In this document: positions 15,926 through 57,013 of the stretch, one piece after another | Position numbering within the stretch: the first letter of the stretch is position 1 | How the letters are laid out: each line of letters opens with the position of its first letter | NCBI RefSeq assembly: GCF_014696675.1 | Contig: NZ_JACJQN010000004.1 | Coordinates: 124,001 to 188,000 of the forward strand | Source: Phormidium tenue FACHB-1052 | GTDB taxonomy: Bacteria; Cyanobacteriota; Cyanobacteriia; Phormidesmidales; Phormidesmidaceae | Direction: 5' to 3' | Length of the DNA: 64,000 nt | The notes under the pieces: model-generated | Databases searched by the model: none | Told to the model about the DNA's origin: nothing | The model's input: only the letters and a program-made list of their open reading frames with translations | Position numbers and translations under genes: made by a program

Positions 15926-17242
15926 ATGAACCAACTGCTGCTGATTCCTATTGTTGCGTTTGCCAAGCTGCTGACCCTGGCCCTACGGGCATCGGGTTGG
16001 GGGTCGGGTACCGCCCTGCCAGGCTACCTAGTGGGCCGCTATTTTCCTTTTGTTCTAAAGGCACTGGTCAGCCAAATTCCCGTGGTGGTGGCCATTACCG
16101 GCACCAACGGCAAAACCACCAGCCAGACCATGCTCAGCGCCGTGCTTGACCAAGCGCCGCAGGCTAAGGTACTGCGCAACAAGGCCGGGGCCAACCTCAG
16201 CCAGGGTATTTTGTCAGAATTACTCAAGCAGAGCAACGCCGTTGGTCGCCTTGACTTTACCCATGCGGTGCTTGAAGTCGAAGAAGCCACCCTGCCCCGC
16301 ATTGCCAGGCTGATCAAACCCAATATCATCGCCGTCACCAACCTCTACCGCGACCAGCTCGATGCCTACGGTGAAGTCGATCGCACCGAAAAGCTGATTC
16401 GCGACGGCATTGCCCAGTGCCCCACCGCCGCCGTGGTCGTCAACGGCGACGATCCCCGCACCTCTCGCCTCACCCAAGGGCTGGAGAACGCCACCTACTT
16501 TATGTCGCTTGCCCCAGAGTACGCCCGGTTTCTGCCCTACGAAGGCAAGCTCAACAGCCGCGTCCCCGACAGTCAGGGGCTAGAGGCGACGAACATCCAC
16601 ATCAATGAAGACCTGACCACCGATTTCTCAGTTCAAGGGCAAATTAATAGTGAAAGGGTGAACCTGCCCCAGGCCAAGACGGTGTCGCCAGGGTTCTTTC
16701 ATGTTTACAACGCGCTGACGGCGATCGCGATCGCCCACCTGCTGGGTATAGACGGAGCCACTGCGATCGCCGGGCTCAAAGCCTTCAAGCCAGCCTTTGG
16801 CCGGGGCGAAATCCTCACCCGTCAGCAGGGCGATAAACAGGTCAACTACCGCCTACTGCTAGTCAAAAATCCCGCCAGTTTCAGCCTCAGCCTAGAGCTG
16901 CTGCGCAATATCCCCAGCCTCAAACTCATTCTCGCCATCAACGACAACACCGCCGACGGCAAAGACGTCTCCTGGCTGTGGGATAGCGAACTTGAAAGGC
17001 TCAACCAGGCCAATATCGACTGGATTCTCTGCACCGGCATTCGCGCCAAAGACATGGCCGTGCGGCTCAAATATGCGCTTGATGTCCCCCCTGGCCCCAT
17101 CCCAGCCGAAGAATCTATTCGTCAGGCGATTGATTCATCCTTCAAAAAAGTTGGTTCTGGCGACACGGTGTTTGTGCTGCCCACTTACACCGCCATGCTC
17201 GAATTTCGCAAGCTCATGGGCAAAACCTTAGATGTGCTCTAG
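15926..17242 (+). CDS. murT: Mur ligase family protein MurT (lipid II isoglutaminyl synthase subunit)
   Basis: Large subunit of the MurT/GatD complex, which amidates the alpha-carboxyl of D-Glu in the peptidoglycan stem of lipid II. The protein has 438 residues: an N-terminal hydrophobic helix (1-20), a central Mur ligase ATPase domain with P-loop GTNGKTT (59-65) and the EVEEATLPRI metal/ATP segment, and a C-terminal DUF1727 domain. In Gram-positive MurT a four-cysteine zinc ribbon is inserted in the central domain. Here that region (about 195-250) has no cysteine at all. The gene is followed 68 bases later by gatD, as in other bacteria. Whether cyanobacterial peptidoglycan is amidated this way is not established by the sequence. 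Confidence 0.88.
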   Translation: MNQLLLIPIVAFAKLLTLALRASGWGSGTALPGYLVGRYFPFVLKALVSQIPVVVAITGTNGKTTSQTMLSAVLDQAPQAKVLRNKAGANLSQGILSELLKQSNAVGRLDFTHAVLEVEEATLPRIARLIKPNIIAVTNLYRDQLDAYGEVDRTEKLIRDGIAQCPTAAVVVNGDDPRTSRLTQGLENATYFMSLAPEYARFLPYEGKLNSRVPDSQGLEATNIHINEDLTTDFSVQGQINSERVNLPQAKTVSPGFFHVYNALTAIAIAHLLGIDGATAIAGLKAFKPAFGRGEILTRQQGDKQVNYRLLLVKNPASFSLSLELLRNIPSLKLILAINDNTADGKDVSWLWDSELERLNQANIDWILCTGIRAKDMAVRLKYALDVPPGPIPAEESIRQAIDSSFKKVGSGDTVFVLPTYTAMLEFRKLMGKTLDVL

Positions 17243-17310
17243 GCCTTCGCCATCAGGCCCAACCCCACCGCAATTCAAAATTTAAAACTCTCCCATCTTC
17301 CCCTCATCCC

Positions 17311-18102
17311 ATGGCCTACGCCCTCACCATCACCCACCTCTACCCCGACTACCTCAACCTCTACGGCGACACTGGCAACCTCATCGTGCTGCGCCGCCGC
17401 TGCCAGTGGATGGGCATTGACTGCACCGTAAAATCCTTGACCATGGAGGAGGTCGCCCAAAGCGGTCAGACTGATCTTTACTTCATGGGCGGTGGCCAAG
17501 ATCTGGATCAGGTGGCGGTGGTCAACGACTTCCACCAGCTCAAGTACGAAGCCATTCGGGCCGACACCGAGGCCGGAGTCGTGTTCCTGGGGGTATGCGG
17601 CGGCTACCAGCTCATGGGCAACACCTTCTTAATGGGCAATGGTGAAGCAACTCAAGGATTGGGCATCATCAACGTCAACACCCGTGCGCCGGGCACTGAC
17701 GTCAAGCAGCGGTGCATCGGCAACCTCATTGTCGAAATCAATCCTGTCACCTACGCCGAAATGCAGACAGTTTATACCGCTGCCCGCGATATTCCCCAAA
17801 CTCTGGTTGGGTTTGAAAACCACTCAGGACAAACCTACTTGGGCGACGGCGTCGAACCCCTGGCCAAAACCATTGTCGGATTTGGCAACAATGCCACCGC
17901 CGAGTACGAGGGCGCGCGCTACAAAAACGTCTTTGGCAGCTACATGCACGGGTCACTACTGCCCAAAAATCCGCATTTTGCTGATTATCTAATTGCGTTA
18001 GCCCTACGCCGTAAGTATGCCGATGCTACCCTCACTCTGCCCACCCTGGCCGATACCGAAGAATTTGCCGCCCACGAGTCTGTTATTCAGCGCTATGGCT
18101 AA
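17311..18102 (+). CDS. gatD: Glutamine amidotransferase GatD (lipid II isoglutaminyl synthase subunit)
   Basis: Glutaminase partner of MurT, supplying ammonia for amidation of lipid II; cytosolic, acting at the inner face of the membrane. The 263-residue protein starts with ITHLYPDYLNLYGDTGN, typical of the family. It carries the nucleophile Cys96 in GVCGGYQLMG and the catalytic His213 in GSYMHGSLLPKN. The FENHSGQTYLG segment is also characteristic. GatD-like proteins resemble cobyric acid synthase amidotransferases, but pairing with murT settles the assignment. The stop lies nine bases before the signal peptidase gene, so the three genes are probably one transcript. Confidence 0.9.
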   Translation: MAYALTITHLYPDYLNLYGDTGNLIVLRRRCQWMGIDCTVKSLTMEEVAQSGQTDLYFMGGGQDLDQVAVVNDFHQLKYEAIRADTEAGVVFLGVCGGYQLMGNTFLMGNGEATQGLGIINVNTRAPGTDVKQRCIGNLIVEINPVTYAEMQTVYTAARDIPQTLVGFENHSGQTYLGDGVEPLAKTIVGFGNNATAEYEGARYKNVFGSYMHGSLLPKNPHFADYLIALALRRKYADATLTLPTLADTEEFAAHESVIQRYG

Positions 18103-18111
18103 CTCTCATTT

Positions 18112-19176
18112 ATGAAGGCAACCCCTAAGGTACTGGTAGGCCAACGCAAAAGTCCGTGGCTGGCGGTCAACTTGTCAGCGGCACTGCCTGGCATGGGGCA
18201 AATTTATGATGGTGCGATCGCCCGTGGTCTGTTCATCGCCGCTGCTCACCTAGGGCTCGTTGTCTTCATCTTCTGGTCAATCTTTGCGCCCAAGGGCAAC
18301 ACCCTGCGAGGGCTGATCACCCTCATACCACTATTCAGTCTCTACATATTCAATTTGTGGGATAGCCACCATGCGGCTAAGCGGGGCATTACCCTCAACG
18401 AGTTCAGCCCACTGCGCTATCAATCCAGCGATCCGTGGTATCCCGTATTTCTTTCACAAATATTGCCAGGGCTAGGGCACCTATTTTTGCAACAGCCCAC
18501 CATGGGGGGACTGCTGCTAATCTTAGGCGTTCTTACAGCCTACCTAGCCAACTTCAACTCAGCTCTGCTGCCCATACCGCCCATAGTTTGGGGTGTGGGT
18601 TGCGGGTTGGTCTACCGAGCTGCTCCCGCCCGTCAGCGGCAGTGGAGCTGGTTAGGAGGGCTGCTTGTCGCAGTGCTGATCACCCGTCTGGCGATCAGCT
18701 CTATCCCATTCATCGTGCCGCAGAAGGTGGTGCAGTGCATTGTGCCCAGCGAGTCGATGCTGCCTACGCTAGAGGTGCGCGATCGCATTTTCGTCCGTCC
18801 TCGCCCTCTCGGGCACCCCTTAGCGGTGAACGACATCGTTGTCTTTTCTAACCCCGAGCGCACTCCAATTGAACAAGCCGGAGACCTCAAAAATTTAATG
18901 GTGAAACGGGTCATCGCTCTACCCGGTCAGCAGGTAGAGATCCGCAACGGTAAGGTTTGGCTGAATGGCATCTCCCTAGACGAGTCCCACTTGGCCGAGC
19001 CTATCCTCTACCAGTGGGGTCCAAAAACAGTACCCACTGACCACCTGTTCGTACTTGGCGACAATCGCAACAACAGCCGCGATTCTCATGTGTGGGGATT
19101 TCTGCCCCAAGCTCACGTGGTAGGCAATGCCTACAAAATCTATTGGCCACCCCAACGGGTACAGCCTTTACCCTAG
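18112..19176 (+). CDS. lepB: Signal peptidase I with a duplicated N-terminal membrane domain
   Basis: Type I signal peptidase, which removes Sec/Tat signal peptides at the outer face of the membrane. The catalytic domain (about 200-354) has the nucleophile Ser215 in PSESMLPTL, the general base Lys265 in MVKRVIALPGQ and the conserved GDNRNNSRDSHVWG box. Unusually, about 195 residues precede it with roughly six hydrophobic segments. These form two related units: LSAALPGMGQIYDG (about 21-34) and LSQILPGLGHLFLQQ (about 115-129) share a PGxGxxxxxG pattern of TM2-like or DUF5683-like domains. Typical LepB has one or two membrane spans, so this one is a fusion. It follows gatD by nine bases. Confidence 0.88.
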   Translation: MKATPKVLVGQRKSPWLAVNLSAALPGMGQIYDGAIARGLFIAAAHLGLVVFIFWSIFAPKGNTLRGLITLIPLFSLYIFNLWDSHHAAKRGITLNEFSPLRYQSSDPWYPVFLSQILPGLGHLFLQQPTMGGLLLILGVLTAYLANFNSALLPIPPIVWGVGCGLVYRAAPARQRQWSWLGGLLVAVLITRLAISSIPFIVPQKVVQCIVPSESMLPTLEVRDRIFVRPRPLGHPLAVNDIVVFSNPERTPIEQAGDLKNLMVKRVIALPGQQVEIRNGKVWLNGISLDESHLAEPILYQWGPKTVPTDHLFVLGDNRNNSRDSHVWGFLPQAHVVGNAYKIYWPPQRVQPLP

Positions 19177-19805
19177 TTGAAGAACACTCTCAACTATTTT
19201 AGTCGTTCATCACAGATCTAAATTGTTGATTCTCAGTCTTCCTAGAGTTAGATCAATCTCCCATCAGGGTAATTTAAGGGTGATTTTGCCTGCCAAAGGC
19301 TAATCTAAACAGCTACCGCTATATTTATAGGGTTTTTACATGTTGACTGTCTGACTTCACCGACTGCTCACAATGATAGTCCGGGTCAGGGCTAAGCTAG
19401 CCAACAGGCGTATCCTGGAAGAGTCTAAGCATGTATGTCGTCACCATGCAACAAATTTACGTCATGCTTAGGCATGCTAGTTGCACTCTAGCAGCGACTT
19501 TGTTAGTCCTAAAGTACACAACTTCATGATCAAGTTAAAAACTTGTTAATACGGTTGAAGACAACAGGAAGAGTATAGAAGTCTAGCGTAAGCTACGGTA
19601 AGAATACTTAAGCTAAAGATTCGCTCAATTTAACTTAGTTCCCCGGCTTACGGCTAAATAAATTTTCCAGAAATGAGGACTTTAATTTGATGTAGGCAGT
19701 GTTTTACTGGAACAAATGAGTTAAAGATTTAGCTCAATTTCCACAGGCTAAGCGCGTCAGCTCGAAGACCAGAACTTCCTAGTTTTATTATTTTCTAGAG
19801 GGTTT
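19177..19805. other. 629-base non-coding leader before the sugar cassette
   Basis: This stretch is AT-richer than its surroundings and has no convincing gene on either strand. A 9-bp inverted repeat, CTAAGCATG at 19425-19433 and CATGCTTAG at 19463-19471, lies in the middle. An AGAGGG ribosome-like site (19797-19802) directly precedes rfbF. It probably holds the promoter and a long leader for the five-gene cassette. I found no clean -35/-10 pair and no recognised riboswitch. Confidence 0.5.
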
Positions 19806-53369: not shown

Positions 53370-55616
53370 TCAGGCAATGGCGTAGCGAAAGCTCAGGGTA
53401 GCCCAGCGATCGTGGTGCAGGGCGTAGTAGTCGGGGACTGGCTTCTCCTCGTCAGGGTAGGCGCTGAGGTCTTGCAGCAGCGCCTGGGCCAGTCGCAGGG
53501 GCTGGGGTACTGGGCGAAAACCTGTAGTCAGCGACGGCGGATCATCGCCCAGCACCGCTAGGCACTGTTCGAAGGGCTGGGTGCTGAGAATGACGTAGGC
53601 CTCTACCCAAGTGGCTGCCCCGGCCATGGCCCAGCCCGCGCCATCGGCGGGGATAGACACGAGCTGACCCGGCTCCAGGGGCATAGCAGCGGCGGGTACT
53701 TCGGCCCCATCGGCGGCGATCGCATTGGGCAGTGTCATCAGGGCATTGCACTCGCCCCGGCTATCAAAGCTAATCCACAGTAGGTGCAGGGGCTGGGTCG
53801 AGGTGTTGGCCAGGCGATAGCCAATGCGACCATCGCGGGGCAGCATAATCGGGTCATCGGTCGCGGCCTTCTGGGCCTGGCGCATCGCCACAGGCCAGGT
53901 GACGGTGGGGCTGCGTTCGGTGGTCTGCACCAGCAGCGGCATGGGCTTGGGCTGCACCGCCTCCAGCAGCGCCGCCGCTCCCACCCGAGAAGCCGCATGA
54001 TTTTCGGTCAGCCGCACCAGCTTGAGGGCCAGCAGGGTTTGCAGGTAGGGGGTGAGCCGGTTGACCGCTGTTTTCACCGCCTCTTCTTTGGCCAGCATGG
54101 TGCCGGGCAGCAGGGTGCGATTGGGGGCAAACAGCCCATAGCTGCTCTCAGCGGGGCGTTCTCCCCCCTGGGCGGCTCCCCGAGCATCGCCGCCCAGCTT
54201 GGGCTGGGCCTCCTCAGCACTGGGCAGGGCCGCAGTCAGGGTGGAAACCGGGCCAATGGGCAGGCGACCAAACAGGCAGTCGGCAGCCTTTTCGCCAGCG
54301 GTCACCGAGGTCACCAGGGGGATACCCGCCAGGGCGCTGGTGGCGTCCACCCGTTCCACCCGCTTAAGCTGACTGTCGAGGGCGACAATTAAATCGATAG
54401 TTTGGGGTAGCCGCCGCACCTGCTCGAACAGGGGCTGATGGGCAAGCGATGGCGGAGAAACCTCGCCCTCCAATGGCCGAACCACTGCTTTTAGGCCCGT
54501 ACGCGACTCCAGCCGCAAAAGCAAGGCCGGTGAATCAGCTCCGGCAACTAAGCGAGAGCCAGGCTGTAGGTAACGCAGCACCTGGGGCGGCACCCCCCCC
54601 AACCAGGCGGTCAAAGGGCGCTCATCGCTGGCCGACAAAATTATCCCTGCCGCTGGCGGCAGTTGGGGGGGTAGACCGTAGGCCGTTGGGCTGGTGCGAA
54701 GGGGCAGGCGATCGCTCAGACCAGGCTGCTGGTCAGCCCCCACCCATCGCTGGAGCCGCGAACTCGCGCGCTGGATCAAGACCCTAGCCGTGGAGTTAGG
54801 TTCTGTTTCCCACAGGCTTTGGGTGAGGGCATAGGTGAAAACTCCGGCGCTAAACCCGTCCCACTGGCTTTCTAATACCAGTCGACCCATGTCAGCCGCC
54901 CGCAGCACTAGCCCTGGCCAGGGATCGTCTAACGGCAAGGGAAATATTTCCGTGGATGAGGGCAGCAGCCCCGTGGGTACTGTAGGCCGAGACCTAACTC
55001 GAGAATTTCCCCAGCGCAGATAGCCCGCATCCTGACTGCCCGCATCGATGACGGTGGTCAAGTTAGCGGTGGCTAAAGGTCTGAGTCGAGCGATAATTTC
55101 GGCCTCAAGCAGGTCGCCCAGGGCAGGGTTAGCTTCGCTGGGTAGGCGGCTATCGACCGTTACCCAAGCGGCCTGGAGAGCATCCGAGGCCTCAGCCTCA
55201 ACCACGCGCACCTGACTGCCGTAGCCGCTGAAGTGCAGCAGCACAACATCGTCGCTCTGGGCCTGCTGCACCAGATGCTCGTCAATGGCGGTGAGAATAT
55301 TGGCGCGGGTGGCCTCCTGGTTGGTTAGCGTTACCACATCGGCGGGCTGAAAGCCAAAGCGGTGCACCAGCAGCTGTCGCTGTAGTTCCACATCGGTGAC
55401 ACAGCCCTTGAGGGCAATATCTTGGGCAACGCCGGGGTCAAGAGCGCGATCGGGGTAAGTATTAATGCCAATCAGCAAGGCCAGCCGCCGCCGGGCGGGC
55501 TTGGCCAGGGCCTCCTGGTAACGGCTGTAGGTGGACAGCCAAGCCGAACCACCTACCCCCAGCGCCCCTAGAGCCAAGCTCGCCTGCTGCAAAAACGCCC
55601 GTCGTTTCAGTGTCAC
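53370..55616 (-). CDS. Orthocaspase-like protein lacking the catalytic His-Cys pair
   Basis: Caspase-fold (C14) protein of 748 residues, of the cyanobacterial orthocaspase type. A twin-arginine-like export signal (KRRAFLQQ, then a hydrophobic stretch to about 26) precedes the p20-like domain (about 43-270), which begins RRLALLIGINTYPD. The catalytic His of the usual SGHGSQ motif is Tyr132 here (HFSGYGSQ). The catalytic Cys of DxCHSG is replaced in VIDAGSQDAG (Gly193). It is therefore a pseudo-protease by inspection. The C-terminal part (about 330-748), with SDERPLTAWLGG and GRIGYRLANTSTQPL, is the usual long extension of unknown role. The start is GTG, 18 bases after the sat stop, so the two are probably cotranscribed. 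Confidence 0.85.
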   Translation of the reverse strand: MTLKRRAFLQQASLALGALGVGGSAWLSTYSRYQEALAKPARRRLALLIGINTYPDRALDPGVAQDIALKGCVTDVELQRQLLVHRFGFQPADVVTLTNQEATRANILTAIDEHLVQQAQSDDVVLLHFSGYGSQVRVVEAEASDALQAAWVTVDSRLPSEANPALGDLLEAEIIARLRPLATANLTTVIDAGSQDAGYLRWGNSRVRSRPTVPTGLLPSSTEIFPLPLDDPWPGLVLRAADMGRLVLESQWDGFSAGVFTYALTQSLWETEPNSTARVLIQRASSRLQRWVGADQQPGLSDRLPLRTSPTAYGLPPQLPPAAGIILSASDERPLTAWLGGVPPQVLRYLQPGSRLVAGADSPALLLRLESRTGLKAVVRPLEGEVSPPSLAHQPLFEQVRRLPQTIDLIVALDSQLKRVERVDATSALAGIPLVTSVTAGEKAADCLFGRLPIGPVSTLTAALPSAEEAQPKLGGDARGAAQGGERPAESSYGLFAPNRTLLPGTMLAKEEAVKTAVNRLTPYLQTLLALKLVRLTENHAASRVGAAALLEAVQPKPMPLLVQTTERSPTVTWPVAMRQAQKAATDDPIMLPRDGRIGYRLANTSTQPLHLLWISFDSRGECNALMTLPNAIAADGAEVPAAAMPLEPGQLVSIPADGAGWAMAGAATWVEAYVILSTQPFEQCLAVLGDDPPSLTTGFRPVPQPLRLAQALLQDLSAYPDEEKPVPDYYALHHDRWATLSFRYAIA

Positions 55617-55634
55617 CGAGTTGATTGCATCCTA

Positions 55635-56816
55635 CTAGCTGACGGCTTCGGGAACTCGCATGGCCTTAGCCAGCTCCGCCGCCACCTCGGGCCGAGAAAA
55701 CTCAGGGGGGGGCAGTTCGCCGCGGCGCAGCATCTCCCGTACCTTAGTACCCGACAGGTGAATCCGCTCGTCCTTGGTGCTGGGGCTGGTTTTAGAGGTG
55801 GCCATGCCTCCGGTGCGGGTGCAGTAGAAGGCGTGCTCAAACTTCATTGGCACAATGCCCAGCTCCGTCGGCTCAAACTCATCGAAGATGTACTGAGCGT
55901 CGTAGGTGCCGTAGTAATCACCCACTCCAGCGTGGTCGCGGCCCACAATGAAGTGGGTGCAGCCATAGTTCTTGCGGATCAGCGCGTGGAAAATCGCTTC
56001 CCTAGGGCCAGCGTAGCGCATTGCGGAGGGGTTGATCGCAAGAATCACGCGGTCTTGGGGGAAGTAGTGTTCCACCATAATTTCGTAGCAGCGCATGCGC
56101 ACATCGGCAGGGATATCGTCGGACTTAGTGGCCCCCACCAGCGGGTGCAAAAACAGACCGTCCACGGTTTCTAGGGCACACTTTTGAATGTATTCGTGGG
56201 CGCGATGGATGGGGTTGCGGGTCTGAAAGCCGACGACGGTCTTCCAGTTGCGATCGCGAAACAGTGCTCGTGACGCTGCCGGGTCAATCTGGTAGGTGGG
56301 AAACAGCGGATGGGGATCGCGCTCCAGTAGCCACACTGGGCCAGCTAAATTCACCGCTCCCTGGTCGTAGACTACCTTAACGCCGGGATGCTTTTCGTCG
56401 TCGGTGCGGTAGACGTTCATAGCCTCGCGGGCTTTGTCGTAGGTATATTTTTCTTCCAGTTCTAGCACGCCGACAAAGCGGCCAGTGGGATCATCCAGTC
56501 GCACCAGGCTGCCCTCCACAAGGGGTGCCGCAGTAGCTTCATCCACCGACAGCGTGACCGGAATTGCCCAGGGCAGACCGTTAGCCAGGCGCATATCGGT
56601 GACCACGGTGTCGTAGTCAGCCTGCTTCATAAAGCCACTGAGGGGACTAAAGCCGCCAATAGCAATCATCACCAGATCAGAGAAGGCCCGCTCGTCAAGG
56701 GTGACGCGGGGTAGGGTGTCGGCTTTAGCTAAGAACTGGGCTTTTTGGTCAGGCGTCGCCAGTCGATCGACCAGGGTGCCGCCGTGGGGGGCAATACCGT
56801 CTTTGTGTAGAGTCAT
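55635..56816 (-). CDS. sat: ATP sulfurylase (sulfate adenylyltransferase)
   Basis: Forms adenosine 5'-phosphosulfate from ATP and sulfate, the first step of assimilatory sulfate reduction; cytosolic. The 393-residue monomeric type has [26 protein letters not shown] and [17 protein letters not shown], the three substrate-binding motifs. A late [17 protein letters not shown] segment with the family's APS-binding look is also present. It starts [19 protein letters not shown] like other cyanobacterial Sat proteins; the frame extends 23 codons upstream to 56885. The next gene on the same strand is the orthocaspase-like gene, 18 bases on. Confidence 0.95.
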
Positions 56817-57013
56817 GGAGATACCGCTGCCTTCTGCTGATGAAACACGAAAAATTTGAGGCTGAGCCATGGCCTGGCTGACCAAAGCAACTCCGGTTTC
56901 CCACCGGGGAATCGGGGTTAATTGCCTTGTTCTATGAAATTACATCTTGGTACCAATGTCACGCAGGGGCGCTGAGTCATGTCTGGAATGGCCACCTTTA
57001 GCCCTCCACCAAG

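Follow-up and report, generated by a model that had tools for sequence, protein, structure and literature searches.

A Tyr-Gly member, in Phormidium tenue, of the Tat-signal pseudo-orthocaspases, encoded next to the ATP sulfurylase gene in many cyanobacteria

The window, a 64,000-nucleotide stretch of the Phormidium tenue FACHB-1052 genome, encodes an orthocaspase homolog that carries a twin-arginine-type signal, has lost both catalytic residues, and lies directly behind the ATP sulfurylase gene (sat), an arrangement that recurs across many cyanobacterial families. As a whole, the data are best explained by an exported, probably lumenal pseudoprotease that binds substrates and acts without cutting them, a reading to which we assign a probability of about 0.5. 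The features discussed below are located in the window as follows.

53370 to 55616, complement strand: gene of the Tat-signal pseudo-orthocaspase, Tyr-Gly dyad, 748 amino acids, GTG start (open reading frame and translation; Peptidase_C14)
55503 to 55616, complement strand: twin-arginine-type signal, residues 1 to 38 (KRRAFLQ; A-x-A before K39), from the sequence and the RR motif of orthologs
54711 to 55490, complement strand: caspase domain, residues 43 to 302 (Pfam PF00656, Peptidase_C14, E = 5.8e-15, passing the cut-off)
55221 to 55223, complement strand: Tyr132 codon, catalytic His position (alignment with 97 orthologs and 20 His-Cys sisters)
55038 to 55040, complement strand: Gly193 codon, catalytic Cys position (alignment with His-Cys sisters and profile-profile alignment)
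53547 to 53846, complement strand: DUF4384-like region, about residues 591 to 690 (DUF4384 matches of relatives and collinear alignment)
55617 to 55634, complement strand: 18-base gap from the sat stop to the GTG start (sequence)
55635 to 56885, complement strand: sat, ATP sulfurylase (sulfate adenylyltransferase), 416 amino acids as listed (TIGR00339, 1.2e-131)

Caspase domain, catalytic dyad, and selective constraint

Read by eye, the N-terminus (MTLKRRAFLQQ...EALAKP) displays a twin-arginine pattern followed by a cleavage site of the A-x-A type, and the RR motif is present in all 97 orthologs, whose starts were chosen by a script near the expected place. The twin-arginine-type signal of the preliminary description is therefore borne out by the sequence pattern, and its caspase fold by the Peptidase_C14 match. 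In addition, a profile of 52 family members matched solved metacaspases (best E-value, 5.7e-24), and a p10-like part is touched both by the Pfam match and by a weak second stretch of similarity to Metacaspase-9, whereas the YS clade described below has no p10 domain by the model used in PMC6426788. AlphaFold2 models of the full-length protein and of residues 38 to 320 were of low confidence (mean pLDDT of 38 and 42, respectively), so the pocket is not visible in structure. The input alignments of these models were shallow, with 14 rows, the 13 others being 69 to 91% identical to the window protein.

The two catalytic positions read SGYGSQ, giving Tyr132, and IDAGS, giving Gly193. In the alignment with the His-Cys sisters described below, the Tyr132 column holds His and the Gly193 column holds Cys in 20 of 20 sequences, which confirms the proposed replacement of both residues. 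Placement of the catalytic Cys through solved metacaspases was rejected; in the HMMER alignment, Metacaspase-1 (7qp0) is out of register around DSCHSG, and the position consequently rests on the His-Cys sisters. The window protein thus lacks, in the alignment, the catalytic His and Cys that mark an active orthocaspase.

This loss extends across the family. One ortholog was read in each of 97 of the 106 matching foreign genomes. Residue 132 is Tyr in 86 of these, Cys in 4, Phe in 3, Leu in 2, and His in 1, with 1 unread; residue 193 is Ser in 80, Gly in 15, and Cys in 1, again with 1 unread. None of the 96 readable orthologs (97 aligned) combines His with Cys: the sole His (L123) is paired with Gly and the sole Cys (L078) with Tyr. 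Asp75 and Ser130 are kept in 97 of 97 orthologs, Cys72 is kept in 88 of 97, and Asp191 is invariant across the 52 rows of alignment A2. The assignment of these positions to the S1 pocket is taken from T. brucei MCA2, as treated in the available text of Klemencic et al. (2019; PMC6426788), and from equal spacing rather than from a structure. Among the variants, four genomes of family f11 (L054, L055, L058, and L062) read SGCG, with Cys at the His position, and L015 has a Cys one residue past the Gly.

Comparison of the window gene with 13 near relatives yielded dN/dS ratios of 0.12 to 0.23 for the whole gene and 0.05 to 0.15 for the p20 part (residues 43 to 210). Of four regions compared, p20 gave the lowest ratio in 11 of 13 pairs. 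The pairs are not independent, and the values are rough, as dS is near or above 1 in several of them. In most pairs, constraint is tighter on the domain that has lost catalysis, which is under strong purifying selection. The protein also has matches in 107 of 292 genomes sampled across the phylum. Together, this presence and the low ratios exclude a chance open reading frame or a decaying pseudogene.

Relation to described pseudo-orthocaspases and to His-Cys sisters

The window protein fits the published cyanobacterial Tat-signal pseudo-orthocaspases (the "YS clade") and is therefore of a kind already described. Klemencic et al. (PMC6426788) report, in the available text, pseudo-orthocaspases with Tyr-Ser or Tyr-Gly dyads, the latter listed for several strains, with an acidic pocket that is retained and, in the YS form, a Tat-like N-terminus. 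This bears out the earlier remark that cyanobacteria are known to carry orthocaspase homologs with substituted dyads. Like the YS clade, the window protein combines a p20 domain and a substituted His-Cys dyad with an N-terminal RR and A-x-A and kept pocket Asp residues, and it groups apart from the His-Cys forms. The same dyad is found in SyOC (sll0148) of Synechocystis PCC 6803 (PMC7889975), a likeness drawn from the published description rather than from direct sequence comparison.

Among 139 genomes of the same class with the protein or sat, 104 have the protein, and the remaining 35 all belong to family f20, whose genomes measure 1.6 to 3.7 Mb, a small size suggestive of picocyanobacteria. 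YS pseudo-orthocaspases are reported to be absent from Gloeobacter, Prochlorococcus, and Cyanobium in the available text of PMC6426788.

The sister group comprises 20 His-Cys paralogs (L148 to L167) from 18 genomes, 19 of them 689 to 759 amino acids long and one of 402 amino acids. They share the Tat-type signal (RR-type at the N-terminus), the p20 domain, and the C-terminal region with the window protein but differ from it in their intact dyad, both His and Cys being kept in 20 of 20. A profile of 19 of these sisters (A3) is collinear with the pseudo-group profile (724 columns; probability, 100). A quick tree without an outside root was built from 59 pseudo rows and 15 His-Cys rows, the latter comprising Tat-signal forms only; in it, one change divides the two groups (SH-aLRT, 100). 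Because this split is clean and His-Cys prevails in the wider family, a single ancestral loss of the dyad would be the simplest reading.

DUF4384 was detected at an E-value of 0.01 in 19 of 19 sisters (A3) and in 32 of 52 A2 members, but the Pfam search of the window protein gave no match to it. This differs from the available text of PMC6426788, where the YS and YN groups have no C-terminal domain. As judged from these matches, the C-terminal part, in print without an identifiable domain, is a diverged DUF4384 region in many members.

The P. tenue genome also holds a Tat-signal His-Cys sibling (L168:3174-5435; G000:C21, about 17180-19420), which lies in pieces in different frames with an internal stop. 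This copy may be broken, or the assembly may contain errors there.

Linkage with sat and the gene neighborhood

As first described, the gene follows sat by 18 bases on the same strand. Co-conservation with sat, listed at that stage as a point to check, proved to be strong: in 66 of the 97 loci, sat is found on the same strand no more than 6 kb upstream, the distance being within 700 bases in 64 (gap of -23 to 394 bases) and roughly 2.0 and 2.3 kb in the other two. The opposite strand carries it in 0 of the 97, and it is absent from the examined stretch in 31, for 3 of which that stretch covers less than 1.4 kb upstream. The 64 linked genomes span 16 of 27 family codes, a count that is the fairer measure, given that family f7 alone contributes 31 of the 97. 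Among near relatives with upstream DNA, sat stands in front in 14 of 14, and a local Nodosilinea accident is ruled out by the breadth of the linkage. The other neighbors in the window do not share this pattern. The secD/secF genes, the pyruvate dehydrogenase E1 beta gene, and the genes for 443-, 214-, and 123-amino-acid proteins occur within 6 kb of the ortholog in 0 of 97 loci and the gene for a 633-amino-acid protein in 2 of 97, with secD/secF and E1 beta as the fair controls, as the others may be lineage genes without a counterpart in most genomes. The next commonest neighbor after sat is S-methyl-5'-thioadenosine phosphorylase (23 of 97 loci, four family codes; 3 of the 23 were checked by NCBIfam).

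On a FastTree phylogeny of 117 rows, the sat link requires 11 changes over 94 labeled rows, whereas 100 shuffles required 23.8 on average and never fewer than 20. Counted against all other rows, the link requires 13 changes. The linked family f18 branches deep in this tree, a placement made unsure by long branches, and the 74-row tree places it elsewhere. The linkage is likely old and lost many times; repeated gain is possible.

One instance is in print. Asplund-Samuelsson et al. (2016; PMC4933709) report, in the available text, that the Nodularia spumigena caspase homolog M32 (NSP_23610) adjoins sulfate adenylyltransferase (NSP_23620), like the window gene, as well as methylthioadenosine phosphorylase (NSP_23600), and they propose a sulfur connection. 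This likeness concerns one species and rests on the description, the sequences being uncompared. The word "sulfurylase" is absent from the main text of PMC6426788, and the literature searched on sulfur and caspase homologs, with most subscription journals outside it, yielded no wider count of the linkage. As far as this literature extends, the neighborhood was known for Nodularia, and its spread over 16 family codes is new.

Pseudoproteases long kept by selection must do something, and a lasting gene partner offers a handle on function. Any reason for the link is, at this point, conjecture. The favored one, which we consider about as probable as its opposite, is promoter sharing only, with the gene riding on a steady housekeeping transcript and having no sulfur role. 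The gaps of -23 to 394 bases indicate that the coupling is often loose. In Nodularia, transcripts of M32 may begin at several sites, some of them within the gene before it, and expression is steady near the median (PMC4933709), housekeeping behavior that promoter sharing would help explain. Furthermore, three genomes of genus code g47 (L074 to L076; G268, G147, and G183) keep the protein with a divergent sat elsewhere (57 to 58% identity), an apparent replacement of sat, while the fourth (L103; G143) has the usual sat (78%) linked. These three genomes argue against a strict need, and a requirement of the protein for the usual kind of Sat is unsupported. On the other hand, the surrounding gene order is shuffled and many promoters could serve, yet sat stays in front in 16 of the 27 family codes.

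That constancy, always upstream and on the same strand, could also reflect a functional module in which the protein would adjust redox state or protein turnover in the lumen to the Sat-made supply of sulfate and cysteine, an explanation we consider less likely. The phosphorylase as the next most frequent neighbor would fit it, and a functional partnership would, in oxygenic photosynthesis, tie sulfate assimilation to the quality control of lumenal proteins. However, Sat is taken to be cytosolic while its partner is exported, and the protein persists both where sat is replaced and where the two genes are apart. Of the published statements, the sulfur link proposed for Nodularia speaks for a module (PMC4933709, available text), and the main text of the SyOC paper, with no match to sulfur or sulfate, speaks against it (PMC7889975). 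We favor promoter sharing over a functional module as the reason for the sat link.

A bolder version, in which sat together with the pseudo-orthocaspase would constitute an ancient cyanobacterial module coupling sulfate assimilation to thylakoid-lumen protein handling, near photosystem II upkeep, appears doubtful. In one weak-match genome (G036; L172), psbO is followed by sat, a caspase-like gene with a His-Gly dyad by motif, and ftsH; no caspase-like gene was found at sat in the other five weak-match genomes viewed there. All three f20 genomes examined (L178 to L180) have psbO, a divergent sat, and ftsH in this order, without a caspase-like gene. The psbO assignments are Pfam-confirmed in L180 and L059 and based on tblastn in L172, L178, and L179; those of FtsH are Pfam-confirmed in L180 and L172 and based on tblastn in L178 and L179. 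In L178, sat was missed in the open reading frame listing and placed by a separate sat search. Of the 97 loci, only 1 has psbO and none has this FtsH, and the psbO/ftsH association is suggestive rather than a pattern. At L059:1418-8277, psbO, a putative sigma factor gene, two further open reading frames, and the pseudo-orthocaspase gene share one orientation, with no sat among them and with psbO about 4 kb upstream.

Location and candidate function

Published data on a homolog bear on the location of the protein. In Synechococcus PCC 7002, A0101, the listed homolog of sll0148, was labeled by the lumenal probe PsbU-APEX2 (enrichment, 7.64), where it is listed between Psb32 and Ycf48; the cytoplasmic probe did not recover it (PMC7880944, Table 1 and available text). 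By analogy, this labeling supports export of the family to the thylakoid lumen.

In the explanation that we prefer, the protein would fold in the cytoplasm and then be exported by the Tat route, most likely to the thylakoid lumen, as the published homologs suggest, or else to the periplasm. There, the kept acidic S1 pocket might bind exposed Arg/Lys segments of client proteins, a speculation that starts from the kept pocket positions, while a partner may be held by the long C-terminal part, which includes the DUF4384-like region. Under light or oxidative stress, the protein could then sequester or present other proteins during turnover in the lumen. An influence on how well cells survive oxidative stress would be in line with SyOC, whose deletion raises H2O2 tolerance and for which a pro-death role is proposed (PMC7889975, available text). 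The non-proteolytic binding protein outside the cytoplasm envisaged in the preliminary description fits the dyad loss in 96 of 96 readable orthologs, the pocket acids, the universal RR motif, and the lumenal PCC 7002 homolog; its inactivity, binding, and location in P. tenue are what we infer from these. Several points weigh against this explanation. The pocket acids may be retained because folding requires them, 35 sat-bearing f20 genomes do without the protein, the lumenal location comes from another species, and loss of SyOC has no growth phenotype in the absence of stress (PMC7889975, available text).

Alternatively, the protein could regulate an active His-Cys sibling as a decoy or partner, like cFLIP for caspase-8, the example named in PMC6426788. 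A Tat-signal His-Cys sister is indeed present in the 18 genomes that gave the 20 paralogs, but we regard this role as unlikely, given that the sibling of P. tenue itself is in pieces in different frames and that, in the available text of PMC6426788, most unicellular species carry the pseudo form only. Hydrolysis through other residues, such as Ser194 or Tyr132, is very improbable: Ser194 adjoins Gly193 and Ser takes the Cys position in 80 of 97 orthologs, but the Ser at residue 194 is not shared (Tyr in 58 of 97, Phe in 26, His in 10, Ser in 1, Asp in 1, and 1 unread) and His is absent in 95 of 96.

Further p20 proteins are encoded in the P. tenue genome. By motif, L001 and L002 keep SGHG and DCC; L003 (G000:C32:139126-139764) has SGYG, with LDMNR in place of DxC, and looks like the published Tyr-Asn type. 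A tblastn search of plasmids returned 100 records with a p20-like match, 88 of them from Rhizobium and none above 60% identity.
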